DNA from: Arachidicoccus sp.
Lineage (GTDB): Bacteria; Bacteroidota; Bacteroidia; Chitinophagales; Chitinophagaceae
Direction of reading: 5' to 3'
DNA length: 64,000 bases
Assembly: GCA_028283605.1 (NCBI GenBank)
Contig: JAPWKH010000008.1
Coordinates: forward strand, 186,001 to 250,000
In this document: in pieces, positions 15,049 through 50,438 of the stretch
Layout: each line of letters starts with the position of its first letter
Numbering within the stretch: position 1 is the stretch's first letter
Made by a program: the position numbers and the translations under genes
The notes under the pieces: model-generated
Database searches by the model: none
What the model was told of the DNA's origin: nothing
What the model saw: the letters and a program-made list of their open reading frames with translations, nothing else

Positions 15049-16992
15049 TTATTTTGTTCTTTTAATCACGATTTTTTCATCGAGCAACTCAAACATTTTT
15101 TTATAAAATGCTTTTATATCAGGATATTCATCAAGCGGATATGCAGGCGCAAGAAAATTGATTGATAACAAATAGCTTACAGAACTGTCAGAAACTTTTT
15201 GGAATATTCTTCGGATAATAATGCTGCTGTCGCCAATGCGCATTAAAATATTTTTTGGCATATCTTCAAATGCAAGGCCGTCTGCAATATTGATGTATCC
15301 TGTAATATTATATGAATGCAGCACATCCATCTGGATAGCCGTTTGCCGTTTGTCTGCCGTGAAAGGATTGTTTTCCGGCCCGCAATATTCATTATACGGA
15401 ATCAATAAATAATTACCCGAATTTTTTGCCGTGCCGCTCAATGATAAGTTGATGTTTAACGGAGACGATATATCGTCTTTGTTTTCTACCTCAAACGAAT
15501 CCACTTTCAATCCGATATTTTTATTTAATGCGAAACTTGATTTTATATTATTTTCTTCTACATCTTTGAGGGTTTCGATTCTTGCGTAACTATCAAACGT
15601 CAAGTTTGCAAAGCCAGATATTTTTCCGTCCCGGGCAATATTAAAATTTGCCATTCCCCTCGTTGTAAATTTATCCTTCGTATCTGAAATGCTGATCCAT
15701 CGCGATGTTTTATTGTCTGCAATCAATGCTGAAGTAAAATTAATATTACGTGGTATTACGTTATACGGCGTGTATTTATCCGCAGCATTCATAATATATG
15801 GAGTGCTCTCTGTTTCGGCATAAATCATTACTGCATCAAATTCGTTTAGGTCTACATAAGCGGGATTTGCCAAACCATGATCGTGTGTGCTTACTAAAAG
15901 AGGAAGGGCATTTATTTTATAATCTCGCAACCAATTGATGACTAAAAAATTGATGTCGGCAATAGAGCCTTGTTTTTTATCCCATGCAGATTTTACACCG
16001 CTGTTGTCATCAGAAGAAATGCTTCTGAAATCATTGCATTTCATGCGGCTTTGCACATATTCATAAACAGTTTTTACTTTTTCCCGATCGTTTTTGCATA
16101 ATGCAACAGCGGCATCAAGATCTTCCGGGTGATGTATATTTCTTTTTAGTTGGCCGCCTGCACTGTAGTCATCAAGATATTCTTCACACTGCTTCTGCCA
16201 GTTCGTTCCCACTTCGATTACGTTTTGCCCCGGAGGTGTAATGGTTGTAAGATTAAAATCCACACGCTGCATATAATCCAGCCAGCCGGACATGTATGGT
16301 TCTTCGTGGATGCTTGCAATATTGCGCATGATGAACCAGTTACCTGTATAGTCTGTACTTTTCTTTATCTCAATATCCTGCCGCCGGTTTACCTGATAAG
16401 TAAAATTGAAATAATCGGGAACTATCAGATTATATGCGCTGTACTTTACGGGATATTCGTTCTGGAAAAACCAGGAACGAATGTTCCAATAAGATTTTCT
16501 ATAGCTGGTATATTTGTACTCAACTACAGAGCCTACGCGTACATCGGGCAATGCAAAAGAAATTTCTGAATAATTATTATCTAAGGGCTTATCAAAAACA
16601 TCTGATTTTTTTAGTTTGCTTACAACTACTTTTCCTGTACTGCTGTCCAGATTATATACATAACCTTCTACTGTAGAAATTCTTTCATTTCCATCTTTGG
16701 AATAATACCTGATTTTTACATCTGCCGCTTTTGAAATTCCTGCTTCTTTAAACACTTTGAATTTCTTCCTTGTTTCGGTTTGTACAGTCACGCCGCCACC
16801 GAAATTATAAGTAACAGTTCCTAAATTTACCAGGCACTCCAATGGTTGGCCGGGATCAAAATCACAATCCTTTAATTCCAGTTCAGAATTATCCGGCTTG
16901 CCGAACCCAATAATCTTATCTTGTGCAAATGCCTGAAAAATAAATAGCGTATAAACTATAAGCAGAAAATAAAATTTCATTATTGCAGACAA
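15049..16992 (-). CDS. DUF3857 / transglutaminase-like secreted protein
   Basis: Signal peptide; 'RVGSVVEYKYTSY...YPVKYSAYNLIVPDYFNFTYQ', transglutaminase-like segment 'VKTVYEYVQSRMKCND...ADINFLVINWLRDYKINALPLLVSTHDHG'. Confidence 0.8.
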   Translation of the reverse strand: MSAIMKFYFLLIVYTLFIFQAFAQDKIIGFGKPDNSELELKDCDFDPGQPLECLVNLGTVTYNFGGGVTVQTETRKKFKVFKEAGISKAADVKIRYYSKDGNERISTVEGYVYNLDSSTGKVVVSKLKKSDVFDKPLDNNYSEISFALPDVRVGSVVEYKYTSYRKSYWNIRSWFFQNEYPVKYSAYNLIVPDYFNFTYQVNRRQDIEIKKSTDYTGNWFIMRNIASIHEEPYMSGWLDYMQRVDFNLTTITPPGQNVIEVGTNWQKQCEEYLDDYSAGGQLKRNIHHPEDLDAAVALCKNDREKVKTVYEYVQSRMKCNDFRSISSDDNSGVKSAWDKKQGSIADINFLVINWLRDYKINALPLLVSTHDHGLANPAYVDLNEFDAVMIYAETESTPYIMNAADKYTPYNVIPRNINFTSALIADNKTSRWISISDTKDKFTTRGMANFNIARDGKISGFANLTFDSYARIETLKDVEENNIKSSFALNKNIGLKVDSFEVENKDDISSPLNINLSLSGTAKNSGNYLLIPYNEYCGPENNPFTADKRQTAIQMDVLHSYNITGYINIADGLAFEDMPKNILMRIGDSSIIIRRIFQKVSDSSVSYLLSINFLAPAYPLDEYPDIKAFYKKMFELLDEKIVIKRTK

Positions 16993-18239: not shown

Positions 18240-19193
18240 CTATGCAATTTCTTTTACAACATTGTATATCGTGCTCGGTTTGCCCAGCGTATAAAAATGC
18301 AACACCGGAACGCCGAAAGATTTTAATTCTTTGCTCTGCTGTATCAGCCATTCAATGCCTATTTTTTCGGCATCTTCATCTGTATTGGTTTGTTCAATTG
18401 CATTTGTCAAATCATGAGGAATTTCTATATTAAATATTTTCGGCAATACATTCAACTGGCTTTTTTTGGTTAAAGCTTTCAATCCCGGAATAATGGGAAT
18501 ATCAATTCCCAATGCTCTGCAATCTTCCACAAACCTGAAAAATTTTTTATTATCAAAAAACATTTGCGTCATAATATACGCAGCGCCCGCATCTACTTTG
18601 GCCTTCAGCTTTTGCAAATCATCCTGATAGCTTGCTGCTTCAAAATGCATTTCAGGATAGCCGGCAACGCCGGCACAAAAATCGGTTTTACCGCCGGCGG
18701 TAATTGTATTATCGAGATAGATTCCGTTATTAAGATTATTAATTTGTTTTAATAAATCTATCGCATATCTGTGCCCGCCAATTTCAGGCTCAAAATGAAT
18801 TTCGTTTTTTGCTGCATCTCCTCTTAGTGCCAATACGTTTTGTATGCCGAGAAAATTCAGATCAATCAATGCATCTTCCGTATCGTTTTTTGTAAAGCCG
18901 CCACAAATGATGTGAGGAACTGCATCGGTTCCGTAATGGTTCATAATGGCAGCACAGATTCCTACGGTTCCCGGACGTTTGCGTATGGCAACTTTTTCAA
19001 AAGTACCGTCGTCTCGTTTCTTTATAGTTGTATCTGCGCGGTGATATGTTACATTTATCCATGAAGGTTTAAATTCCATCAGCGGATCGAGATGATTGTA
19101 TATTGAAGAAATATCCCTTCCCTTCAGAGGAGGAAGAATTTCAAAAGAAATCAAAGTATCTTTAGCCTGTTGTATATGTTCTGTAATTTTCAT
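18240..19193 (-). CDS. metF: Methylenetetrahydrofolate reductase
   Basis: 'DTLISFEILPPLKGRDISSIYNHLDPLMEFKPSWINVTYHR', 'ALRGDA', 'YIMTQMFFDNKKFFRFVEDCRALGIDIPIIPGLKAL'; start placed at MKITEHIQ. Confidence 0.95.
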   Translation of the reverse strand: MKITEHIQQAKDTLISFEILPPLKGRDISSIYNHLDPLMEFKPSWINVTYHRADTTIKKRDDGTFEKVAIRKRPGTVGICAAIMNHYGTDAVPHIICGGFTKNDTEDALIDLNFLGIQNVLALRGDAAKNEIHFEPEIGGHRYAIDLLKQINNLNNGIYLDNTITAGGKTDFCAGVAGYPEMHFEAASYQDDLQKLKAKVDAGAAYIMTQMFFDNKKFFRFVEDCRALGIDIPIIPGLKALTKKSQLNVLPKIFNIEIPHDLTNAIEQTNTDEDAEKIGIEWLIQQSKELKSFGVPVLHFYTLGKPSTIYNVVKEIA

Positions 19194-36485: not shown

Positions 36486-37511
36486 CTATGCTTTTGATTT
36501 CAAGGAAGATTCTCGTATTATAAGTGACATCGGAATTACAAAAGTGTTTGACGGAAGTTTTATATTCTTGTTTTTATTTTTTAATTGCCTAATTAATTCT
36601 TTCGCCGCCATTTCGCCCATAATTATACCCGGATAATCTATGGTGGATAATTTTGGCCGGATAAGATCGCCGATTACATCGTTATTAAACCCAAACACGG
36701 CAATATCTTCGGGTACTTTAAATCCTTTTTGCGTTAGTTGTTCGATACAAACTGCAGCTGCAAAATCATTTGTGATAAAAAACGCATCTGGCTTTTGTAT
36801 TAATAATTCATTTACTGCTTTTATGGTAGCATCTTTATCTAAATCGCATACGTACAAGAGTTTTTTATTGTACTTAATATGATAATTTTTTAGCGCTGTT
36901 TTATACCCTTCAAATCGGTCTCTGTAAACATTTCGATAAAGATCTGCCGTGATATGCGCAATTTTGGAACATCCTTGCTCAATCAGATGAATAGTGGCCT
37001 GATAACCAGCTTGGAAATTATCAATAATTACTTTTGTGAATTTCGGATCATCCGGTACGCGATCAAAAAATACAACCGGAATATTGCGTTTTGTAAAAGG
37101 CAGAAAATGTTCAATCCCTTTTGTCGTGAGCGAAAGAGAAACAATTAATCCGTCAACTCTTTTGCTTAGTAAATTTTTTGTATTTGCAACTTCCCGAATT
37201 TCAGTTTCGTTGGAATGCGTAATTAATAGATCATACCCTTCCTGCGTTGTTATTTTTTCTATGCCTGCAAGTACAGATGTTACAAAGCTGCTGTTGACTT
37301 CATGTAATAAAATTCCGATGGTTTTGGATTGTTGTTTTCTTAAATTGCTTGCAATCGTATTATGCCTGTAACCCAATTCTTTAGCGGTAAGATTAATTTT
37401 TTCTCTTGTTTTAACATTGATAATCGGATTATTATTTAGCGCACGGCTTACAGTCGTAGCGGATATTCCAAGCTTTTTTGCTATATCGTAAATTGTAATT
37501 TCTTTATGCAT
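36486..37511 (-). CDS. LacI-family transcriptional regulator
   Basis: 'ITIYDIAKKLGISATTVSRALNNNPIINVKTREKINLTAKELGYRHN', periplasmic-binding-protein-like sensor domain. Confidence 0.96.
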   Translation of the reverse strand: MHKEITIYDIAKKLGISATTVSRALNNNPIINVKTREKINLTAKELGYRHNTIASNLRKQQSKTIGILLHEVNSSFVTSVLAGIEKITTQEGYDLLITHSNETEIREVANTKNLLSKRVDGLIVSLSLTTKGIEHFLPFTKRNIPVVFFDRVPDDPKFTKVIIDNFQAGYQATIHLIEQGCSKIAHITADLYRNVYRDRFEGYKTALKNYHIKYNKKLLYVCDLDKDATIKAVNELLIQKPDAFFITNDFAAAVCIEQLTQKGFKVPEDIAVFGFNNDVIGDLIRPKLSTIDYPGIIMGEMAAKELIRQLKNKNKNIKLPSNTFVIPMSLIIRESSLKSKA

Positions 37512-37556
37512 TATATATAGTACAACAAATTTAAATTAATTCACTAAATAAAGCTT

Positions 37557-37566
37557 CAATCGATTG
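37557..37566. promoter_or_regulatory. Predicted LacI-type operator (CAATCGATTG) in the regulator's own upstream region
   Basis: CG-centred palindrome identical to the core of the site at 40232-40247. Confidence 0.5.
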
Positions 37567-37591
37567 TGATTAGGATAAAGGTTAGGGCGTA

Positions 37592-38104
37592 ATGCACTTA
37601 AACAGCTTGCTGCATCAGCCTGATTTACCTGCTTATACCGATTATTCGATGAATGGCCGCACATATCGTTATATGCAAAAAGCGCCCATGTACCCGTTCG
37701 GATTCGGATTGACGTATGGAAAATTTGTCTATAGCAATATTAGTCTGAATAAAAAATCCATTCATAATAATGAGTCTGTTCAGGTAAGCGCAACCGTTGC
37801 TAATCAAGGAAGCATTGCATCTGATGAAGTAGTGCAGTTATACATTTCCGCTCCGCAGCAAAATTATCTTACCCCATTGTATGCATTAAAAGGCTTTCAA
37901 AGAATTTCGCTGAAACCCAATGAGAGCAAGACATTGAGCTTTACAATAAAGCCTGATGAATTACAAATTATTAACGAGAATGGTGATGCAGTTATACCAA
38001 ATGGCGAATATAAAATTTATATCGGCGGAAGTTCGCCTGTGGCTCGCAGTGAGGAATTGGGTGCGCCTGCGTTGGTAGCTACAAGTATTGTCATTAAAGA
38101 TTGA
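37592..38104 (+). pseudogene. C-terminal fragment of a GH3 beta-xylosidase-like enzyme
   Basis: 'DLPAYTDYSMNGRTYRYMQKAPMYPFGFGLTYGKFVYSN' plus FnIII-like domain; the catalytic GH3 domains are absent upstream. Confidence 0.85.
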
Positions 38105-38117
38105 AAATAAGTTTTCC

Positions 38118-39204
38118 GTGAAAAAGATATTCATATTATTATCAATTGCAGCGTTATTCATCGGTTGGATAACAACCGGCGATCGTCTGAAATACAATGA
38201 TGATAATGGGTTTGAAAGATTATTATAAAAATTATTTTCCGGTAGGAGTAGCAGTAAATACACACAGTATTAAAGGGAATGAAGCGAGCCTTATAAGCAA
38301 AGAATTCAATAGCATTACGCCTGAAAATGCAATGAAATGGGCATATATCGAGCCTAAGCAAGATATATACAACTGGAAAGATGCAGATTCTATAGTGGCA
38401 TTTGCAAAGAAAAATCATTTGCGCATTCGTGGACACAACCTTTGCTGGCATGAGCAAAATCCTTCTTGGCTTTTTGTAGATAAAAATGGCAATCAGGTTT
38501 CAAAAGATACTTTGTTACAGCGTTTAAAAGCGCACATTTTTCGAGTTGTGAATCGATATAAAGATGCAGTATACGCATGGGATGTAGTGAATGAAGCTAT
38601 TGATGATGACAGTACAAAATTTCTTCGCGATTCAAAATGGCATGAAATCTGCGGAGAAGATTTTATTGACAGCGCATTTGTATATGCACATGAAGCAGAT
38701 CCTAAAGCGCAATTGTTTTATAACGATTATAATGCTGAACGGCCGGAAAAAAGAGAACGTATTTATAAACTGCTGAAAGGATTGCGTGCAAAAGGAATTC
38801 CTGTGACAGGCGTAGGTTCACAAGCGCATTGGTCTATATATGAACCCAAACAAGATGAACTGGAAACAACTATAAAAGAGTTTGCCTCTCTTGGATTAAA
38901 AGTTCAAATTACGGAATTGGATCTTTCCATTTTTCCGTGGGAGAAAAGTAGACGGAAAAAAAATCCAAATGAAAATGATGAATACTCTGATCAGTTGAAA
39001 GCCAAACAAGCTGCCCAATACAAAATGATATTTGATGTATTTCGTAAGTACAGACAATATATCAATGGCGTTACTTTTTGGAATGTTTCGGATAAAGATT
39101 CATGGCTGAATCATTATCCTGTGGAAGGAAGAAAAAATTATCCTTTATTGTTTGATTCTTTATTGCATCGCAAAGCTGTTTATTGGAATGTAGCGCAGTG
39201 GTAA
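38118..39204 (+). CDS. GH10 endo-1,4-beta-xylanase; signal peptide (GTG 38118) out of frame with the mature domain (38197..39204)
   Basis: 'RGHNLCWHEQNPSWL', 'YAWDVVNEAIDDDS', 'VGSQAHW', 'ITELDLSIFPW'; upstream frame encodes VKKIFILLSIAALFIGWITTGDRLK... Confidence 0.88.
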
Positions 39205-39209
39205 ATTAA

Positions 39210-40187
39210 TTTAAAATAAGTTTAAAACAATGGCAAGATTTATTAGCAAAGGCAGAAAAAATAGATAACGAATTACCGACTGAATATAAAGATGCGTTCT
39301 TTGAATTAGTGCTGCATCCCGTAAAAGCAATGGAAAATTTGCATGAATTATATTATGATGTTGCCATGAATAAAATGTTTGCTTCGCATAACGATATTAC
39401 CGCAAACACTTATGCAGATAAAGCAAAACAAGCGTATATCAACGATTCATTGATTTCTCTTCAATACAATCAATTGAACAACGGCAAGTGGAATCACATG
39501 ATGGATCAAACACATATCGGTTATCGTTCTTGGCAAGAACCAAGGCATCAATCAATGCCGGAAGTGGAATATCTTCCCAAGGCTTCTATTACGAATACAT
39601 GGATAAGCGACCCGTCATTTGTGAAAGTTACACTTCCAAATAGTGCTTCTAAAAATTCTTTTTATGAAATGAGAAATTATGTTTCAATAGAAGCATCGCA
39701 TTATATAAAAGCGGTTAATACAAAAAACATAAAATGGAAAATCATTAAAGATATTGGCAGAGACGGCGATGGCGTTACAACTTTTCCTGTAACCAAATCT
39801 TTTGCAAAGCTTACAGCATCTAATCCGCAGCTTCAATATGAAATTTATACAAACGATACTGGAGTCATAAAATTAAACGCATATTTTTCACCAACATATA
39901 ATTTTCTAAATGATTCTGCAGGTTTGCAATATGCTGTTTCTATTGATAATGAACAACCGCAAATTGTCAGCCTGAATAAAGAAACAAATACGATAGGCAT
40001 TATGACTAATTGGGTTGCAGACAATATAATTATTAAAACAACAGAACATCAAATTTCAACAAGAGGAAAGCATATTGTAAAGTATTGCATGATTAGCAAT
40101 GCAGTAATTTTACAGAAGATCGTTTTAAACTTTGGAGAGTTAATGCCTAGTTATTTAGGTCCGGCGGAAACCATTACTCCACCATAA
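39210..40187 (+). pseudogene. C-terminal fragment of a GH115 alpha-glucuronidase-like enzyme
   Basis: 'LVLHPVKAMENLHELYYDVAMNKMFASHND...NGKWNHMMDQTHIGYRSWQEP...YVSIEASHY' matches the GH115 C-terminal region; N-terminal and catalytic part missing. Confidence 0.8.
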
Positions 40188-40231
40188 AAATTTACTTGTT
40201 TAATATAACTATCGATTTAAGAAAAATTTAA

Positions 40232-40247
40232 TTGCAATCGATTGCAA
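40232..40247. promoter_or_regulatory. Predicted LacI-type operator upstream of xylB
   Basis: TTGCAATCGATTGCAA, a perfect 16-bp CG-centred palindrome 53 bp upstream of the start codon. Confidence 0.65.
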
Positions 40248-40299
40248 AAATGTAAAATTTGGCTACTTTTATTTTTTTAATTATTGTGTTGAAATCTAT

Positions 40300-41808
40300 A
40301 TGAATGAAATTAATGTAAATAAAATTTTGCTCGGTATTGATGTTGGCACTTCATCTATTAAAGTTTCAGTAGTAGATACGGAAACGCAGCGTAGCATTGC
40401 TTCCGCAACATTTCCTACCGATACGGAGCGCGAAATAAAATCGCCAAAACCTGATTGGGCGGAGCAATCTCCTGAACAATGGTGGAGCGATGTGAAAGCT
40501 GCGATTTTGGAAACACAAACTCAAAATAAATATAACCCAAAGAACATTGTCGCAATTGGAATTACTTATCAAATGCACGGACTGGTAATTGTAGATAAAA
40601 ATAAAAATGTTTTGCGTGATGCAATTATATGGTGCGACAGTCGAACAGAAAAACAAGCGCAGCAAGGGTTGCAAGCGATAGGAGAAGAAAAGTCGTTATC
40701 GCATTTATTGAATTTCCCCGGAAATTTTACAGCATCAAAATTAGCATGGGTAAAAGAAAATGAGCCTGATATTTATGCTAAGATTGATAAGTTTATGTTA
40801 CCCGGCGATTTCATTGCCATGAAATTAACGGATCAAATAACCTCTAGTATATCATCATTATCCGAAGGTGTTTTTTGGGATTTTAAAAACAAAAAAATAT
40901 CTGAAGATATTATGAACGCTTACGGCTTTAACACTTCTGTTTTTCCCGAAACAAAAGCATTGTTCGGTGTGCATGGAAACGTGACAAAAGCTGCGGCAAA
41001 AGAATTGAATATTCCTGAAGGTATTCCCGTAACATACAAAGCCGGCGATCAGCCAAACAATGCATTATCATTAAATGTTTTTGAACCCGGCGAGATTGCT
41101 ACAACTGCCGGTACAAGTGGTGTTATATATGCAGTAACAGATGATTTGATTTATGATAAACTTTCACGCATCAACACATTTGCACATGTAAATCATACGA
41201 ATGAAAAAAATCGTTTAGGCGTGCTATTGTGCATTAATGGAACAGGCATCAGTAATCGATGGATAAAAAATTTGATGGATGAAAATCTTTCTTACCAGCA
41301 AATAGACAAGCTTGCAGCGTCAGTTGGAATTGGCTCGGAAGGATTGCTGTTTCTGCCTTTCGGCAATGGCGCCGAACGAATATTGTGCAACAAGCAAGTG
41401 GGTGCAGGCTTCTCCAATATCAATTTAAACCTGCATAGCAAAGCTCATTTTTTTCGAGCTGTACAGGAAGGAATTTCTTTCTCATTCCGTTACGGATTAG
41501 ATATTATGCGCGAAAACGGTATGCAAACAAAAGTGGTAAAAGCGGGCAAAGCCAATATGTTTTTAAGCAAAGTATTTACGAATGCATTTGTAAATACAAC
41601 AGGTTTGAGTGTTGAATTATACAAAACCGATGGCAGTGTTGGTGCGGCTTTAGGCGCAGGTGTAGGGTTAGGAATTTTTGAAAAACCACAGGATGCTTTT
41701 TCCAAATTGGAGTTGTTAGAAACCATTCATCCTGATAAAGAAGCAGTGAAAATATATGAAGTTGTTTATCAGAAATGGAAGAACTGTCTGAATGTGGATT
41801 TGGGATGA
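40300..41808 (+). CDS. xylB: Xylulokinase (FGGY family)
   Basis: 'LLGIDVGTSSIKVSVVDTE', 'PDWAEQSPEQWW', 'GITYQMHGLVIVDKN', 'IWCDSRTEKQ', 'TTAGTSGVIYAV'. Confidence 0.96.
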   Translation: MNEINVNKILLGIDVGTSSIKVSVVDTETQRSIASATFPTDTEREIKSPKPDWAEQSPEQWWSDVKAAILETQTQNKYNPKNIVAIGITYQMHGLVIVDKNKNVLRDAIIWCDSRTEKQAQQGLQAIGEEKSLSHLLNFPGNFTASKLAWVKENEPDIYAKIDKFMLPGDFIAMKLTDQITSSISSLSEGVFWDFKNKKISEDIMNAYGFNTSVFPETKALFGVHGNVTKAAAKELNIPEGIPVTYKAGDQPNNALSLNVFEPGEIATTAGTSGVIYAVTDDLIYDKLSRINTFAHVNHTNEKNRLGVLLCINGTGISNRWIKNLMDENLSYQQIDKLAASVGIGSEGLLFLPFGNGAERILCNKQVGAGFSNINLNLHSKAHFFRAVQEGISFSFRYGLDIMRENGMQTKVVKAGKANMFLSKVFTNAFVNTTGLSVELYKTDGSVGAALGAGVGLGIFEKPQDAFSKLELLETIHPDKEAVKIYEVVYQKWKNCLNVDLG

Positions 41809-41921: not shown

Positions 41922-43250
41922 ATGGCAATCATTAAAGGAGACAAAGAATATTTCAAAGGAATAGGAGAGATAAGGTACGAAGGGCGCGAAAGCGACAATC
42001 CGCTTGCGTTTAAGTGGTATGATGAAACAAAAGTTGTTGCAGGAAAAACGCTGAAAGAATGGCTTAGGTTTGCAGTTGCATACTGGCATTCATTCAACGG
42101 AAGCGGCGCAGATCCATTTGGAGGAAGAACACATTTTTTTCCTTGGGATGAAAGTACTGATCCAATTCAGCGTGCGAAAGATAAGTCTGATGCGGCTTTT
42201 GAGTTTATTACAAAAATCAATGTACCTTTTTATTGTTTCCACGATGTGGACTTAATCGATTACACTGACGATGTTGCTGAAAATGAAAAAAGATTGAGTA
42301 CAATCAGCGATTATCTTTTAGAAAAACAAAAAGCCAGCGGTGTAAAATTATTGTGGGGAACTGCAAACCTGTTTTCGCATGTACGTTATATGAATGGAGC
42401 CGCAACCAATCCTGATTTTCATGTATTGGCGCATGGAGGTGCACAGGTAAAAGCTGCACTGGATGCAACAATAAAATTAAGCGGAGAGAATTATGTGTTT
42501 TGGGGCGGGCGCGAAGGCTACATGAGTTTGCTAAATACAAACATGAAAAAAGAACAGGAACATTTTGCGCGCTTTTTGCACACTGCAAAAGATTATGCAC
42601 GCAAGCAGGGTTTCAAAGGCACATTCTTTATTGAGCCAAAACCATGCGAACCTACAAAGCACCAATACGATTATGATGCTGCAACTGTAATAGGCTTCTT
42701 GCGTCAATACGATTTACTGAATGATTTTAAACTGAATCTTGAAGTAAACCATGCAACCCTTGCGGGACATACATTCACGCATGAGCTCCAAGTATCTGCT
42801 GATGCAGGTTTGCTCGGTTCTATAGATGCTAATCGTGGTGATTATCAAAACGGCTGGGATACAGATCAATTCCCTACAAATCTTAATGAGCTTGCAGAAA
42901 CCTGGCTTGTAATTTTAGAAGCCGGCGGGTTTAAAGGCGGCGGAGTAAATTTTGATGCAAAAGTCAGAAGAAACTCTACAGATTATCAGGATTTATTTTA
43001 TGCACATATCGGCGGCATTGATGCATTTGCAAGAGGATTGATTATTGCGGATAATATTTTGCAAAAATCTGATTATAAAAAACTCCGTACCGAAAGATAT
43101 GCATCTTATGAAAGCGGCGTCGGCAAAGATTTCGAGGATGGTAAATTGACTTTGGAAGACTTAAGAAATTACGCTGCGCAAAACGGAGAACCAAAGATAA
43201 TCAGCGGCAAGCAGGAATACTTTGAGAATATTATTAATCAGTATATTTAA
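41922..43250 (+). CDS. xylA: Xylose isomerase
   Basis: '[26 protein letters not shown]', 'YCFHDVDLI', '[14 protein letters not shown]', '[16 protein letters not shown]', '[13 protein letters not shown]'. Confidence 0.98.
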
Positions 43251-43355: not shown

Positions 43356-45011
43356 ATGGCATTTATCAACACAGGCAGAAATGAAGCTGTTCAGGGACTT
43401 CGGAAAGGCAATAGTTTTTACATTGTATTGCTGACGTTGGTAGCAGCTTTGGGTGGTTTATTATTTGGCTATGATACAGCCGTTGTTAATGGTGCGGAAG
43501 AAGCATTAGGAAAATATTTTGTGCTGCCCAAGCCGGATGATTTCTCATTGCTTACATCATCGTTGATAAATCAATATCGTTGGTTGTTGGTTATCGTGTT
43601 AATCATTGTTGCCATTATTATTTGCGTACAAATGATAAAATTGCTCGGAAAAAATAAAGGATTAATTGTAAGCATCATCTTGCTTGCAGCATTGATTATA
43701 TGGTCGTATTTTTTTGTTGCCGCTGCAATTCCAACGAATGCCGATGGAATAAATATATTACAAAACACGGCAAATTCTATCAAAGGATTTGTGCTTGCAA
43801 GTGCGTTGATTGGCTGTATTATCGGCGGCGCATTAGCGGGAACCATATCGAAAAATTGGGGAAGAAAATCGGGCTTATATATCGCAGCATTATCATTTTT
43901 AATTTCTGCTATAGGTGCCTGGAAGCCGGAAGCGTTCAACTTTTTCGGTGTCCTGCCCGTTTATTCTTTTGTGATTTATAGAATTATCGGCGGCTTGGGC
44001 GTAGGCGTTGCATCAATGATTTCTCCTATGTACATTGCTGAAATTGCCCCTGCAAAAATCAGAGGAAAATTGGTTTCATTTAATCAGTTTGCGATTATTT
44101 TTGGCATGCTTATAATCTATTTTGTAAATTATATAATTGCCGGAAAAGGTGATGAACAGTGGCTTACGACAGAAGGTTGGCGGTGGATGTTTTTCTCGGG
44201 CGTGATTCCTGCGGTAATATTTTTTGTACTCTTATTTCTTGTGCCGGAAACGCCCCGCTATCTTGCGATGAAAGGAAAAGATGATAAAGCGTTAAAAGTA
44301 TTGGCAAAAATCGGCGGCAAAGACGAAGCGCAATCTGTGTTGCTATCTATAAAAAGTACGCTGCACGAAACCAATAGCCCTTGGTTGTCGTATGGATCTT
44401 TATTAATTATTGTGGGTGTGTTGCTTTCCGTATTTCAGCAATTTGTAGGAATAAATGTAGTTCTTTATTACGCGGGAAATATTTTTCGCAACATGGGATC
44501 ATCAACCGATTCATCTTTGTTGCAAACCATTATTGTCGGCATTGTGAATTTATTATTTACTGTTATTGCCATTTTTACAGTAGATAAATTTGGCCGCAAG
44601 CCATTGATGATAATAGGTTCGGTTGGAATGGCTGCAAGCATGATGGCAATTGGCTTTCTGTTCTATTCGCAAAATCTCGGAATTGCTGCATTGATATTTA
44701 TGTTGATTTATACTGCTGCTTTTGCATTGAGTTGGGGCCCGGTTTGCTGGGTATTGCTTGCAGAGATTTTTCCAAACAGTATTCGCGGCGCTTTATCTAT
44801 TGCTGTTGCTGCGCAATGGATTGCAAATTGGGTTGTATCTTTTACCTTCCCTGTGATGAATGATAATGTTGCACTTACCAATCAGTTCCATCATGGATTT
44901 GCTTATTGGATTTATGGGGTAATGGCCGTATTGTCCGCATTGTTTATCTGGAAATTGGTGCCGGAAACAAAAGGTAAAAGCCTGGAAGAGATTGAAAGTG
45001 TATGGAAATAA
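43356..45011 (+). CDS. MFS sugar porter (XylE-like, D-xylose:H+ symporter type)
   Basis: 'LGGLLFGYDTAVVNGAEE', 'RIIGGLGVGVASMISPMYIAEIAPAKIRGKLVSFNQ', 'PETPRYL', 'WGPVCWVLLAEIFPNSIRG', 'VPETKGKSLEEIE'. Confidence 0.95.
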   Translation: MAFINTGRNEAVQGLRKGNSFYIVLLTLVAALGGLLFGYDTAVVNGAEEALGKYFVLPKPDDFSLLTSSLINQYRWLLVIVLIIVAIIICVQMIKLLGKNKGLIVSIILLAALIIWSYFFVAAAIPTNADGINILQNTANSIKGFVLASALIGCIIGGALAGTISKNWGRKSGLYIAALSFLISAIGAWKPEAFNFFGVLPVYSFVIYRIIGGLGVGVASMISPMYIAEIAPAKIRGKLVSFNQFAIIFGMLIIYFVNYIIAGKGDEQWLTTEGWRWMFFSGVIPAVIFFVLLFLVPETPRYLAMKGKDDKALKVLAKIGGKDEAQSVLLSIKSTLHETNSPWLSYGSLLIIVGVLLSVFQQFVGINVVLYYAGNIFRNMGSSTDSSLLQTIIVGIVNLLFTVIAIFTVDKFGRKPLMIIGSVGMAASMMAIGFLFYSQNLGIAALIFMLIYTAAFALSWGPVCWVLLAEIFPNSIRGALSIAVAAQWIANWVVSFTFPVMNDNVALTNQFHHGFAYWIYGVMAVLSALFIWKLVPETKGKSLEEIESVWK

Positions 45012-45016
45012 AAATC

Positions 45017-45886
45017 TTATATAAATATTCTGGTACCGGAAAATCCTTCTCTGAATTCTTTAGGTGTTTTTCCTTTCTTTTTTTTGAATATTCTGTTGAA
45101 GTTAGATATATTGTTAAAGCCGCATGAATAGGCTATTTCAGCAATACTGTGCGATGTTTCCATCAGCATTCGCGTAGCGCTGCTCAGCCTGATTTCGGTT
45201 AATGTATCAATAAAAGTTTTACCTGTTTTGTTTTTGAAAAATCGACTGAACCCAACTTCCGTCATATTTGCAATTTTTGCCGCTTCAGAAAGCCCGGCCT
45301 GCTTGTTGAAATTGTTATGAATATATTCAATTACTTTCCGGATGCGGCGGCTGTTATAGGATATTGAATTATTGTTGAATACACTTCCGGATAATACGGT
45401 AATATTTCTTGAAAGGGAAAGATCATGCAAAATCGATAAAAGTTCTAATACCGAATCAAAACCTGTTTTATTTACCAAAGATAAAATGCGCGGGCTGATT
45501 CTTTCTATTGTGTCTGAAGAAAAAAGAATGCCGTTGGCTGATGTTTCAAACATCCTTCTCATATAATCCAGTTGCTTTTTTTGTAAAAATTTATCCTGTA
45601 ATAAATCTCTGTGAAACTGAATGGTTACTTCATGTATTTTTTTGCTTTTGCATTTTTCGGTAAACCATCCGTGCGGTAAATTCGGCCCGACGAATACCAA
45701 TTCGGATTGGCCGATCAGGCTTATATGATCGCCAACTACTCGTTTGGCATTCTTGGCATTTAAAATAAGGTTAAGTTCAAATTCTTCGTGAGTATGCAAT
45801 GGAAAATCAAAATTGCTTTTATGTCTTACGGCCATGGTAAAACAATCGTTTTGGGTCAGCGGCGTAATTTCTCTGAAAATTTCCAT
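45017..45886 (-). CDS. AraC-family transcriptional regulator
   Basis: N-terminal cupin 'HTHEEFELNLIL', C-terminal HTH 'IANMTEVGFSRFFKNKTGKTFIDTLTEIRLSSATRML...EIAYSCGFNNISNFNRIFKKKKGKTPKEFRE'. Confidence 0.96.
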   Translation of the reverse strand: MEIFREITPLTQNDCFTMAVRHKSNFDFPLHTHEEFELNLILNAKNAKRVVGDHISLIGQSELVFVGPNLPHGWFTEKCKSKKIHEVTIQFHRDLLQDKFLQKKQLDYMRRMFETSANGILFSSDTIERISPRILSLVNKTGFDSVLELLSILHDLSLSRNITVLSGSVFNNNSISYNSRRIRKVIEYIHNNFNKQAGLSEAAKIANMTEVGFSRFFKNKTGKTFIDTLTEIRLSSATRMLMETSHSIAEIAYSCGFNNISNFNRIFKKKKGKTPKEFREGFSGTRIFI

Positions 45887-46078
45887 TGTTTTGTATAAAA
45901 TTTATATTCATAAAGATAAAAATAAAATAAGGATTATGTCAAGATAATATTATTAAATAATTACGATGAAATGTATATGTAGAAAGACATAAGAAATTTT
46001 TTTTTAATAAAATGATTATCAACAGTGAAAAAAATACTAATGTATTATTAAATTTTTTATTATTAATTTTAAACAATT

Positions 46079-47023
46079 ATGAAGAAAGCGTTATTCTCAA
46101 TTTTCCTTCTTATTTCAGGAATGCCCTATGCACAAAGGCCTGTTGATATACATGGTTTTCTCAATGTAAAAGGAACAGGCTTATTTGATCAATACGGAAA
46201 AAAAATTGCTTTGCATGGTGTCAGCTACGGATGGCACAATTTCTGGCCGAGATTTTATAACCAATCTTCAGTCGCATGGTTGGCCGGAGATTGGCATGTG
46301 TCTGTAGTAAGGGCGGCAATAGGCGCCGAACCGCGGGACGGATATATAAATGCACCAAAGAAATCATTAAAAGCAGCAGAAGCAATTATTAATGGCGCAA
46401 TTAAAAGCGGAATATATGTAATTGTTGATTGGCATTCTCATAATATAAACATAGACTCGGCCACGCAATTCTTTACATTCATTGCAAAAAAATATCATCA
46501 TTATCCAAATATCATATACGAAATTTTTAACGAACCTGATTACGAATCCTGGGAAGAAGTAAAGCAATATGCCGAAAAAATAGTAACTGTCATCCGAAAG
46601 TATGATCCTAAAAATCTTATCTTAGTCGGTTGCCCTCATTGGGATCAGGATATTATGCAGCCTGCCGATGATCCTTTGAAAAATGTTACTAATGTTATGT
46701 ACACTGTGCATTTTTATGCTGCTACACATAAAGAATATCTGAGAAAACGTTGTGACAGCGCTTTGGCAAAAGGCCTTCCGATATTTATTTCCGAATCCGC
46801 CGGAATGGAGGCCTCCGGTGACGGAAATTTAGACTATCCTGAATGGCTAACTTGGATTCGTTGGGCAGATAATCGAAACATTTCTTGGGTTGTCTGGTCT
46901 GTATCCGATAAAGATGAAACTTGCTCTATGCTAAAAAAATCTGCCGGTTCAAACGGCGGCTGGAATGATAATGAGTTGAAAGAATCGGGCGTCTATACGA
47001 AAAGATTACTAAAAAAGTATTAG
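46079..47023 (+). CDS. GH5 family glycoside hydrolase (cellulase-like)
   Basis: 'GKKIALHGVSYGWHNFWPRFYN', 'VIVDWHSH', acid/base 'YEIFNEPDYESW', nucleophile 'FISESAGME'. Confidence 0.93.
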   Translation: MKKALFSIFLLISGMPYAQRPVDIHGFLNVKGTGLFDQYGKKIALHGVSYGWHNFWPRFYNQSSVAWLAGDWHVSVVRAAIGAEPRDGYINAPKKSLKAAEAIINGAIKSGIYVIVDWHSHNINIDSATQFFTFIAKKYHHYPNIIYEIFNEPDYESWEEVKQYAEKIVTVIRKYDPKNLILVGCPHWDQDIMQPADDPLKNVTNVMYTVHFYAATHKEYLRKRCDSALAKGLPIFISESAGMEASGDGNLDYPEWLTWIRWADNRNISWVVWSVSDKDETCSMLKKSAGSNGGWNDNELKESGVYTKRLLKKY

Positions 47024-47207
47024 TATATATTATAAACTTAATTAGTAATTTAATTTTTCTTCTAATGCGCTGTTATATTGACTATCACAATATCTTTTAA
47101 ATAGTTTTTTCATTCATTTATTTTTTAGCAATTACATTTTTATACTTCAAGATAAAAAATAACAATTAATAGCTAATAAAGTATTATAAACTCTTTTAAC
47201 AAAAATC

Positions 47208-47215
47208 TACTTTTG
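47208..47215 (+). promoter_or_regulatory. Bacteroidota -7 element TACTTTTG upstream of susC
   Basis: TAnnTTTG match 17 bp upstream of the ATG. Confidence 0.35.
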
Positions 47216-47231
47216 TGAAAACTTACAAACG

Positions 47232-50200
47232 ATGATTAATAAGATTGTTGGCAAATTTTTTATCCTTATTTTTTTCTTATTGTCTGTGTCTCTTGCTTTT
47301 GCCCAAACGATTACTGTTTCCGGAAGTGTAAAAGACGAAAACGGACAGCCATTGAGTTTAGTGTCGGTAACGCAGGTCGGAGGAACCAAACACGCACTTA
47401 CTGATGAAAAAGGCAACTTTACGATTACGGTTTCGGATAATGCAAAATTTTTACAATTTTCTTATACAGGTAAAAAAGATGTTGTAAAACCAATTGTTGC
47501 AGGGCAAGCTTTGAATGTACAACTGGAATCTTCCGACTCCAAATTGGGCGATGTAGTAGTAATTGGTTATGGAACGGAAAAAAAAGCAAATATTACGAGT
47601 GCAATATCATCGCTTAAAGCAGATGATATTAAAAATATTCCGGCTGCAGGCGTAGATCAGATGATGCAAGGTAAAATTCCCGGAGTTACTGTAACAACCA
47701 ATTCAGGACAACCCGGCGGCGGAGTTTCGGTACGCGTTAGAGGTATTACTACTGTCAGCAATGTGGCCGGCGTTAGTAATGAACCTTTGTATGTGATAGA
47801 CGGGGTTCCAATATATTCAAGTACAGCTAGTACGAGTCAGGATCAGTTGGGAGGAGTTGCAGGTCAAACGACGCAAAGTGTTTTAGCTACTTTAAACCCT
47901 TCGGATATCGAATCCATTGATGTTTTAAAAGATGCTTCTGCACAAGCTATATATGGATCTGCGGGTGCAAATGGAGTCGTGTTAATCACAACAAAGAAGG
48001 GTAAAACGGGAGAAGGAAAAATTTCTTACGATGGATATGTAGGTTGGTCAGATGTACAAAAAAAATTGCCATTGATGGATTTGAGGCAATATGCTCAATA
48101 TTATAACTCGCTTGTAGGAGAAGTTGGCTCCATAGTTGGTTTGGACACTATACCTGAGTTTGCAAATCCTTCTCTTCTTGGTAAAGGAACAGATTGGCAG
48201 GATGCTATATTTCAGACAGGTGTAATGCAAAATCATCAATTGTCATTCTCCGGAGGTACTGGCAAAACAACGTATTACTTTTCCGGTGGTTATTTTGACC
48301 AAACGGGAACAGTAATTGGCTCAGAATTTAAAAGGTGGTCTATTCGTGCAAGCGTTGACCAGCAAGTCAAGAAATGGTTGAAAGCTGGCGTGAGTGCTAA
48401 TCTTAGCCGAACGAATCAACAAGTAACTTTAACGGACGGGCAACAATCCGTGATTAGTTTGGCGTTATATAATAGCCCCGCAACTCCTGTGAAAGGTCTG
48501 GATGGATCTTATCTCAGCACATCTTCAATTGCCGGAGTGCCTTTTGGTCAGAGTCAAAATCCTGTAGCGCTTGCCCTATTAAGAGATGTGCATGATATTC
48601 AGTCAAAAGCTTATGGTAATATATATGCGGAAATTGAATTTATTCCGGGGCTTACTTTACGCAATCAATTCAATTACGATGCACAATCTTTACAAAATAC
48701 CGGTTTCGAGCCAAGTATAACCAATCCGGTAACTAATCTCCTTGTGATTGGACCCAATAGACTGAGAGTTGAAACTGATAACAGTTATTATTTTGGACTG
48801 CAAACTTATCTTACTTACAATCACACATTTTTAGGCAAACATTATTTAAATGTAGTGGTTGGGCATGAAGCATCCAGATCGGATTATGATTCTAAATATA
48901 TTTCCGCAACCGGTACGGTTTTGAATCAGGAAACATTTAATGGCGCTACAATAGATGATGCACAAACCGGTGGTAATTCATATCCGGATAGAAGTGAAGG
49001 CTATTTCGCGAGATTGAATTATACGTATGATAACAGATATTCTATTAGTCTCTCGGATAGAAGAGATGGAAGTGCAAAATTCGGCCCTAATCACAGAATC
49101 GGTTATTTCCCTGCAGCATCAGCTGCCTGGACTGTATCCAACGAAAAATTTGCTAAAAACTGGAGCTGGGTGTCTAATCTTAAACTTAGAATAGGAGTAG
49201 GAGACGTGGGTTATTCAGCCGGAAATTTTGCATATCAGACCAATATTAGACTACTTTCTTCCGGTTTAAATGGCTTATTGGGTGAGAGTGGTATAGGTGT
49301 TGTTGGAAATTTGGGTAACCCGGATCTTCATTGGGAAGCTGTAAGAACCTATAATGCAGGCATCGATGCAACCCTCTTTAAAAATCATATAGATTTTACA
49401 ATAGATGTCTATAAAAAAATTACAAAAGATTTGATTTTGGCTACAAGCTTACCAAGTTTTGCAGGATTGGATGTTGATCCTACAGGAAGCAGTGGACCTT
49501 TGGAAGGTTCTTATCAGAACATAGACGCTCCTACAGTAAATGCAGGTCAAATGACGAATACGGGAGTTGATATAGGAATTACTACACACAATATTACAGA
49601 AAAGAATTTTACATGGACAACAAATTTCGTATTTAGTGCTTATAAAAACAGATTGAACAGTACAGCGGGTAACGAGTCATTATTTGGCCGCAGTCAGCAA
49701 TTTACTTCGACTATTCTTACGGTAAGTACACCGGGCTCTGGTAAGTCTGTTGGTGAATTTTATGGCTATGTTACAGATGGATTATATCGCTCAATGGATG
49801 AATTGAACAATGGGCCTGTACCACCATTAGCAATTGGTCAGCAAGGTACCTGGCTCGGAGATATAAGATATAAAGATTTAGACGGAAATGATACTATTAA
49901 TTCAAAAGACCAGACATATATTGGCGACCCTAATCCTAAATTTACTTATAGCATTACAAATACATTTAATTACAAAGGATTTGATTTGTCAATTTTTTTG
50001 AATGGTGTGTATGGGGATAAAATTTTCAATATGACAAGAACGGAAACTGAGCAGAATTACTCGGCTTATCTAAATCAATCAACTGCAGTATTAAATCGCT
50101 ATTCCGCAACAAATCCGAATTCATCGTTTCCACGTTATAATCAGTGGAACAGTAATAATCTCGCAATTTCTGATCGATTTGTAGAGAGTGGTTCTTATCT

Positions 50201-50438
50201 AAGGATTCAGAATATTTCCTTAGGATATAATATACCTAAGAAAGTTTTAGATAAACTCAAAGTTATTTCATCTTTCAGGGTATATGTCTCAGGTCAAAAT
50301 ATTCATACGTTTACGAAGTATTCAGGATTAGACCCTGAGTTGGGTTCATTTAACGGGAATGCGCTTTTGACCAATGTTGATTACGGTCACTATCCAAATC
50401 CAAGAACATATACAATAGGGGCTAACATTGTATTTTAA
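47232..50438 (+). CDS. SusC/RagA-family TonB-dependent transporter
   Basis: CarboxypepD_reg-like N-terminus, 'VVVIGYGTEKKANITSAISSLKADDI', plug 'PGVTVTTNSGQPGGGVSVRVRGITTV', 'DVLKDASAQAIYGSAGANGVVLITTKKGK'. Confidence 0.97.
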   Translation: MINKIVGKFFILIFFLLSVSLAFAQTITVSGSVKDENGQPLSLVSVTQVGGTKHALTDEKGNFTITVSDNAKFLQFSYTGKKDVVKPIVAGQALNVQLESSDSKLGDVVVIGYGTEKKANITSAISSLKADDIKNIPAAGVDQMMQGKIPGVTVTTNSGQPGGGVSVRVRGITTVSNVAGVSNEPLYVIDGVPIYSSTASTSQDQLGGVAGQTTQSVLATLNPSDIESIDVLKDASAQAIYGSAGANGVVLITTKKGKTGEGKISYDGYVGWSDVQKKLPLMDLRQYAQYYNSLVGEVGSIVGLDTIPEFANPSLLGKGTDWQDAIFQTGVMQNHQLSFSGGTGKTTYYFSGGYFDQTGTVIGSEFKRWSIRASVDQQVKKWLKAGVSANLSRTNQQVTLTDGQQSVISLALYNSPATPVKGLDGSYLSTSSIAGVPFGQSQNPVALALLRDVHDIQSKAYGNIYAEIEFIPGLTLRNQFNYDAQSLQNTGFEPSITNPVTNLLVIGPNRLRVETDNSYYFGLQTYLTYNHTFLGKHYLNVVVGHEASRSDYDSKYISATGTVLNQETFNGATIDDAQTGGNSYPDRSEGYFARLNYTYDNRYSISLSDRRDGSAKFGPNHRIGYFPAASAAWTVSNEKFAKNWSWVSNLKLRIGVGDVGYSAGNFAYQTNIRLLSSGLNGLLGESGIGVVGNLGNPDLHWEAVRTYNAGIDATLFKNHIDFTIDVYKKITKDLILATSLPSFAGLDVDPTGSSGPLEGSYQNIDAPTVNAGQMTNTGVDIGITTHNITEKNFTWTTNFVFSAYKNRLNSTAGNESLFGRSQQFTSTILTVSTPGSGKSVGEFYGYVTDGLYRSMDELNNGPVPPLAIGQQGTWLGDIRYKDLDGNDTINSKDQTYIGDPNPKFTYSITNTFNYKGFDLSIFLNGVYGDKIFNMTRTETEQNYSAYLNQSTAVLNRYSATNPNSSFPRYNQWNSNNLAISDRFVESGSYLRIQNISLGYNIPKKVLDKLKVISSFRVYVSGQNIHTFTKYSGLDPELGSFNGNALLTNVDYGHYPNPRTYTIGANIVF

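Follow-up and report, generated by a model that had tools for sequence, protein, structure and literature searches.

We found that TTGCAATCGATTGCAA, a palindrome located in front of the xylulokinase gene xylB of Arachidicoccus sp., is a strongly supported candidate for the operator of the LacI-type protein encoded nearby at 36486-37511. The window, that is the whole stretch of 64,000 nucleotides that was analysed, carries both elements together with the remains of a xylan cluster (Table 1). We assign a probability of about 0.87 to a reading in which this protein is predicted to bind TTGCAATCGATTGCAA and would repress xylB-xylA-xylE until a sugar releases it, while its autoregulatory site has probably eroded and its regulon shrunken. 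From sequence comparison we infer the binding, repression as opposed to activation, the positions of the promoters, the co-transcription of xylB, xylA and xylE, and the effector.

Table 1. Features of the window around the proposed operator (positions are those of the window).
Feature	Position	Strand	Remarks
LacI-family regulator, 341 aa, proposed repressor	36486-37511	-	Pfam LacI HTH and periplasmic-binding-like domains; congener orthologues
Putative -7 element TAAATTTG of lacI promoter	37526-37533	-	Pattern match; 23 bp after TTG within operator core
Degenerate operator CTTCAATCGATTGTGA	37554-37569		Core at 37557-37566; centred 50 bp before lacI ATG; aligned with the congeners' exact operator
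C-terminal remnant of GH3 beta-xylosidase-like gene	37592-38104	+	Fn3-like domain only; full-length gene in G003
Disrupted GH10 xylanase gene	38118-39204	+	Signal-peptide part 38118-38228, in another frame than catalytic ORF 38197-39204; G003 relative intact
C-terminal remnant of GH115 alpha-glucuronidase gene	39220-40187	+	GH115_C only; DNA match to C-terminal part of G003 gene
Predicted operator TTGCAATCGATTGCAA	40232-40247		Perfect CG-centred 16-bp palindrome; ends 52 bp before xylB ATG
Putative -7 element TACTTTTA of xylB promoter	40264-40271	+	Pattern match; 19 bp after TTG in right half of operator
xylB, xylulokinase	40300-41808	+	FGGY kinase domains; best NCBIfam model XylB, below cut-off; 60-85% identical to congeners
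xylA, xylose isomerase	41922-43250	+	TIGR02630 above cut-off
xylE-type D-xylose transporter	43356-45011	+	NF007484 XylE above cut-off

An earlier note on this DNA had described the palindrome, which is indeed present and perfect. LacI-family sites typically are even palindromes centred on CG and lie 30-140 bp upstream (PMC4052901), and in its even length, its centre and its upstream position TTGCAATCGATTGCAA fits this standard form. About 60 bp separate it from the start of xylB. Palindromy by itself is weak evidence, because five perfect 16-bp palindromes are present in the window where 1.65 are expected by composition (0.21 if a CG centre is demanded), and it was rejected as sole proof of an operator. 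Two more of these palindromes, AGACGATATATCGTCT and TTACCGCCGGCGGTAA, lie at 15463-15478 and 18688-18703. A search of the complete genome of 3,588,324 bases returned a single exact copy of TTGCAATCGATTGCAA, the one before xylB. The nearest other match is one copy with two mismatches within an ORF, and 47 further copies appear at three mismatches, most of them within ORFs as well.

It is comparison that carries the decisive weight. Within the genus, the genome of the strain was set beside those of five Arachidicoccus congeners (G001-G005). The exact 16-mer stands upstream of xylB in all five, so that 16 of 16 bases are kept in six species, and it forms the sole long invariant block of the aligned xylB leaders. 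Four congeners (G001, G002, G004 and G005) have the lacI orthologue directly divergent from xylB, with a single site between the two genes, the centre of which is 45-49 bp from the lacI ATG. With up to one mismatch allowed, we found 19 sites in the six genomes, each of them intergenic and in front of a gene: xylB/lacI, a SusC-type transporter, GH3 or another apparent polysaccharide-utilization gene. At two of these loci (L242 and L246), it is only by taking an upstream start codon that the longest ORF extends into the site; the likely start is further in. The random occurrence inside genes that would have spoken against the operator was thus not seen. In the relatives, the predicted regulon covers xylan as well as xylose and not xylose alone.

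The proposed regulator shows PF00356, PF00532 and PF13377 above cut-off, with a LacI-type HTH followed by a sugar-binding-like domain, and belongs to the LacI family. Orthologues are found in all five congeners (64-74% identity). Among 80 further lacI orthologue loci from named genome records, mostly of Chitinophagaceae, a scan of 300 bp upstream detected TGYAAYCGRTTRCA exactly in 43 and within one mismatch in 67. Scrambled palindromes of the same make-up gave on average 0.02 exact hits and 0.33 within one mismatch, where high scores came from two near-identical permutations only. Within 5 kb of these orthologues lie genes for SusC (47 loci), GH67 (42), GH115 (37), an SDR-type uxuB-like protein (37) and xylB (23), and also SusD and xylA. 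Because the orthologues adjoin GH67, GH115, SusC and xylB, the regulator of the window is best read as a predicted xylan/xylose LacI repressor. Taken together with the site before xylB in every congener, the related motif at most of the 80 loci strongly supports the suggestion of the earlier note that TTGCAATCGATTGCAA is a LacI-type operator and belongs to the 36486-37511 protein.

Of 30 xylB loci, 24 come from genomes with a lacI homologue, and the exact motif was present in 12 of these versus none of the six from genomes without one (p = 0.057), which is only suggestive of the motif at xylB going with the regulator. Some genomes of the family with a lacI homologue have no site within 500 bp upstream of xylB. 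The operator centre is either TCGA or CCGA, and a change in the recognition helix was considered as the cause. Residues AT occur at four loci, all from Arachidicoccus and all with the TCGA centre; TCGA is found with other residues too, so there is no clean rule linking helix and centre, and this idea was rejected.

The other side of the proposed regulon is less well preserved. As described before, the 10-bp core CAATCGATTG recurs upstream of lacI at 37557-37566. Four copies of this core exist in 3.59 Mb, about the number predicted by an estimate from base composition (about 4); two are located 2.7 kb apart, upstream of lacI and xylB, and the other two within ORFs. Since the 16-bp extension CTTCAATCGATTGTGA differs from TTGCAATCGATTGCAA at four positions, all in the flanks, only the core is conserved here. 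The distance from lacI is about the same as for the operators of the congeners, and we read CTTCAATCGATTGTGA as a probable operator in the course of erosion. An operator common to the regulator gene and the xylose/xylan genes is found in the congeners, with a degenerate copy on the lacI side in the window. The picture of two divergent genes sharing one operator hence needs qualification: the orientation and the perfect xylB copy hold, but the genes are not neighbours, having 2.7 kb of glycosidase remnants between them, and the lacI copy is degenerate, which makes autoregulation less certain in this strain.

What lies between the two genes may be understood from G003, where about 15.6 kb separate a lacI pair from xylB and a xylan cluster (SusC, SusD, GH115, an acetylesterase-like protein, GH43, GH3 and GH10) is located in between. 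One exact operator precedes xylB in this genome, and three sites with one or two mismatches lie between lacI and susC. The two tandem lacI copies of G003 (L080:19169-20188 and L081, G003:C1:1243260-1244279) encode proteins 68 and 74% identical to that of the window, where the strain has one. Only pieces of the cluster are left in the window, in a somewhat different order, and the GH10 and GH115 homologies abut at 39221. GH10 is present in a single copy in the strain's genome, which lacks the GH115 catalytic domain that all five congeners have. Judged by these remnants, the xylan cluster of the strain is decayed to fragments, leaving xylB-xylA-xylE with the perfect operator. The XylE-type transporter has 551 aa, and the 480-residue XylE model matches it in two stretches, the main one from residue 133, which suggests extra segments inserted near the N-terminus.

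The palindrome might be a real operator that another LacI-type protein of the same genome binds, with the 36486-37511 gene controlling something else. The genome encodes six LacI-family HTH proteins, five besides this one, and LacI-type operators resemble one another. However, the motif accompanies this very lacI gene in the congeners and across the family, and no second protein of the strain matches the 36486-37511 LacI at E < 1e-70, which makes this explanation improbable. An even smaller chance is given to an AraC-type gene (45017-45886) as the main xylose regulator, in the manner of E. coli XylR, with the palindrome in a minor role. This gene adjoins xylE on its downstream side, and a title cited in PMC12125979 gives an AraC-type DNA-binding domain for E. 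coli XylR. In G003, though, the counterpart sits with GH5 and SusC, away from xylB, and the AraC gene therefore goes with that cluster; moreover, XylR proteins of the AraC type have direct repeats as their sites (PMC12125979) and not a CG-centred palindrome. A chance feature without regulatory function, to which the five palindromes of the window against 1.65 expected might point, is hardly credible with 16 of 16 bases kept before the same gene in six species and all genus copies intergenic.

We thus return to the LacI-type protein as the likely ligand of TTGCAATCGATTGCAA. Without sugar, a dimer of the repressor would bind the CG-centred palindrome. In Bacteroidetes promoters, a TTG at the proper spacing forms the -33 element. 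The window contains TTG-N19-TACTTTTA, the TTG of which falls in the right half of the xylB operator, and the xylB leaders of the congeners keep a TAC-TTTA element at about 20 bp downstream of the operator. The -7 consensus of Bacteroidetes is TAnnTTTG (PMC9723704). This overlap with a putative -33 region fits repression by blocking it: the bound protein would cover the region and prevent transcription of xylB-xylA-xylE. A sugar derived from xylan, most simply xylose, would then release the repressor. The degenerate copy before lacI would be what remains of an autoregulatory site, which in relatives may also have served the xylan-utilization genes; with the decay of the xylan cluster, the regulon would now be reduced to the uptake of xylose and its entry into metabolism.

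A larger regulon in the strain was considered and rejected, as no other convincing site came out of relaxed scans. Sites one mismatch away from the degenerate motif fell within ORFs or at an ORF's 3' edge (L135, at a contig end, was left out), and the few intergenic sites with three mismatches had no recognisable sugar-gene context, judged without family scans. Downstream of xylE, an AraC-type regulator, GH5 and SusC cluster extends over 45017-50438, the G003 counterpart of which is elsewhere in the genome. A site in front of the window's GH5-SusC cluster (47024-47231) was looked for and rejected, the best match there having six mismatches, while in G003 a site with one mismatch precedes the corresponding susC.

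Overall, the original observation is correct and well supported by our comparisons, which extend it to a predicted xylan/xylose regulon; it is ordinary in kind and leaves the understanding of LacI repressor action unchanged. Sugar regulators are poorly mapped in this large group of soil Bacteroidota, for which the finding supplies a concrete operator and regulon that can be tested. Moreover, it clearly illustrates how a regulon shrinks when polysaccharide genes decay, with a perfect operator kept at the metabolic operon. The site may also find use in an inducible promoter for Chitinophagaceae. A literature search, to which most subscription papers lay outside the coverage, returned no described LacI xylose operator in Chitinophagaceae, nor TTGCAATCGATTGCAA itself.

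In a sequence profile comparison, the best-scoring PDB relatives of the window protein are CcpA and PurR. The operators of both are CG-centred palindromes. They differ in serving global catabolite or purine control, with other ligands and other operators. By its role, the window protein resembles XynR of Anaerocellum bescii, a LacI-family protein that controls xylan genes and xylulokinase and for which an operator between xynR and xylB has been verified; this organism is a Firmicute without SusCD, and its operator aatcgaaatcgcttacaatt is unlike TTGCAATCGATTGCAA (PMC12285236). The xylan PUL of Gramella flava is comparable by its gene list, in which lacI stands with xylA, xylB, xylE, aguA, susC and susD; the passage giving this list describes no operator for the lacI gene (PMC5306329). 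In Bacteroides thetaiotaomicron, XylR is likewise the predicted regulator of a Bacteroidetes xylose operon (xylRBAE), but it belongs to the NrtR family, and the LacI regulators KdgR, UxaR, UxmR and UxuR of Bacteroides control uronates (PMC3878776). We lean towards the view that, unlike in Bacteroides with its NrtR-type protein, one clade of LacI-type repressors may act as a family-wide glucuronoxylan regulator in Chitinophagaceae, directly on SusCD, xylan hydrolases, uronate genes and xylBA via TGYAAYCGRTTRCA, and that the strain studied here would represent its natural reduction to xylose only after loss of the xylan genes.
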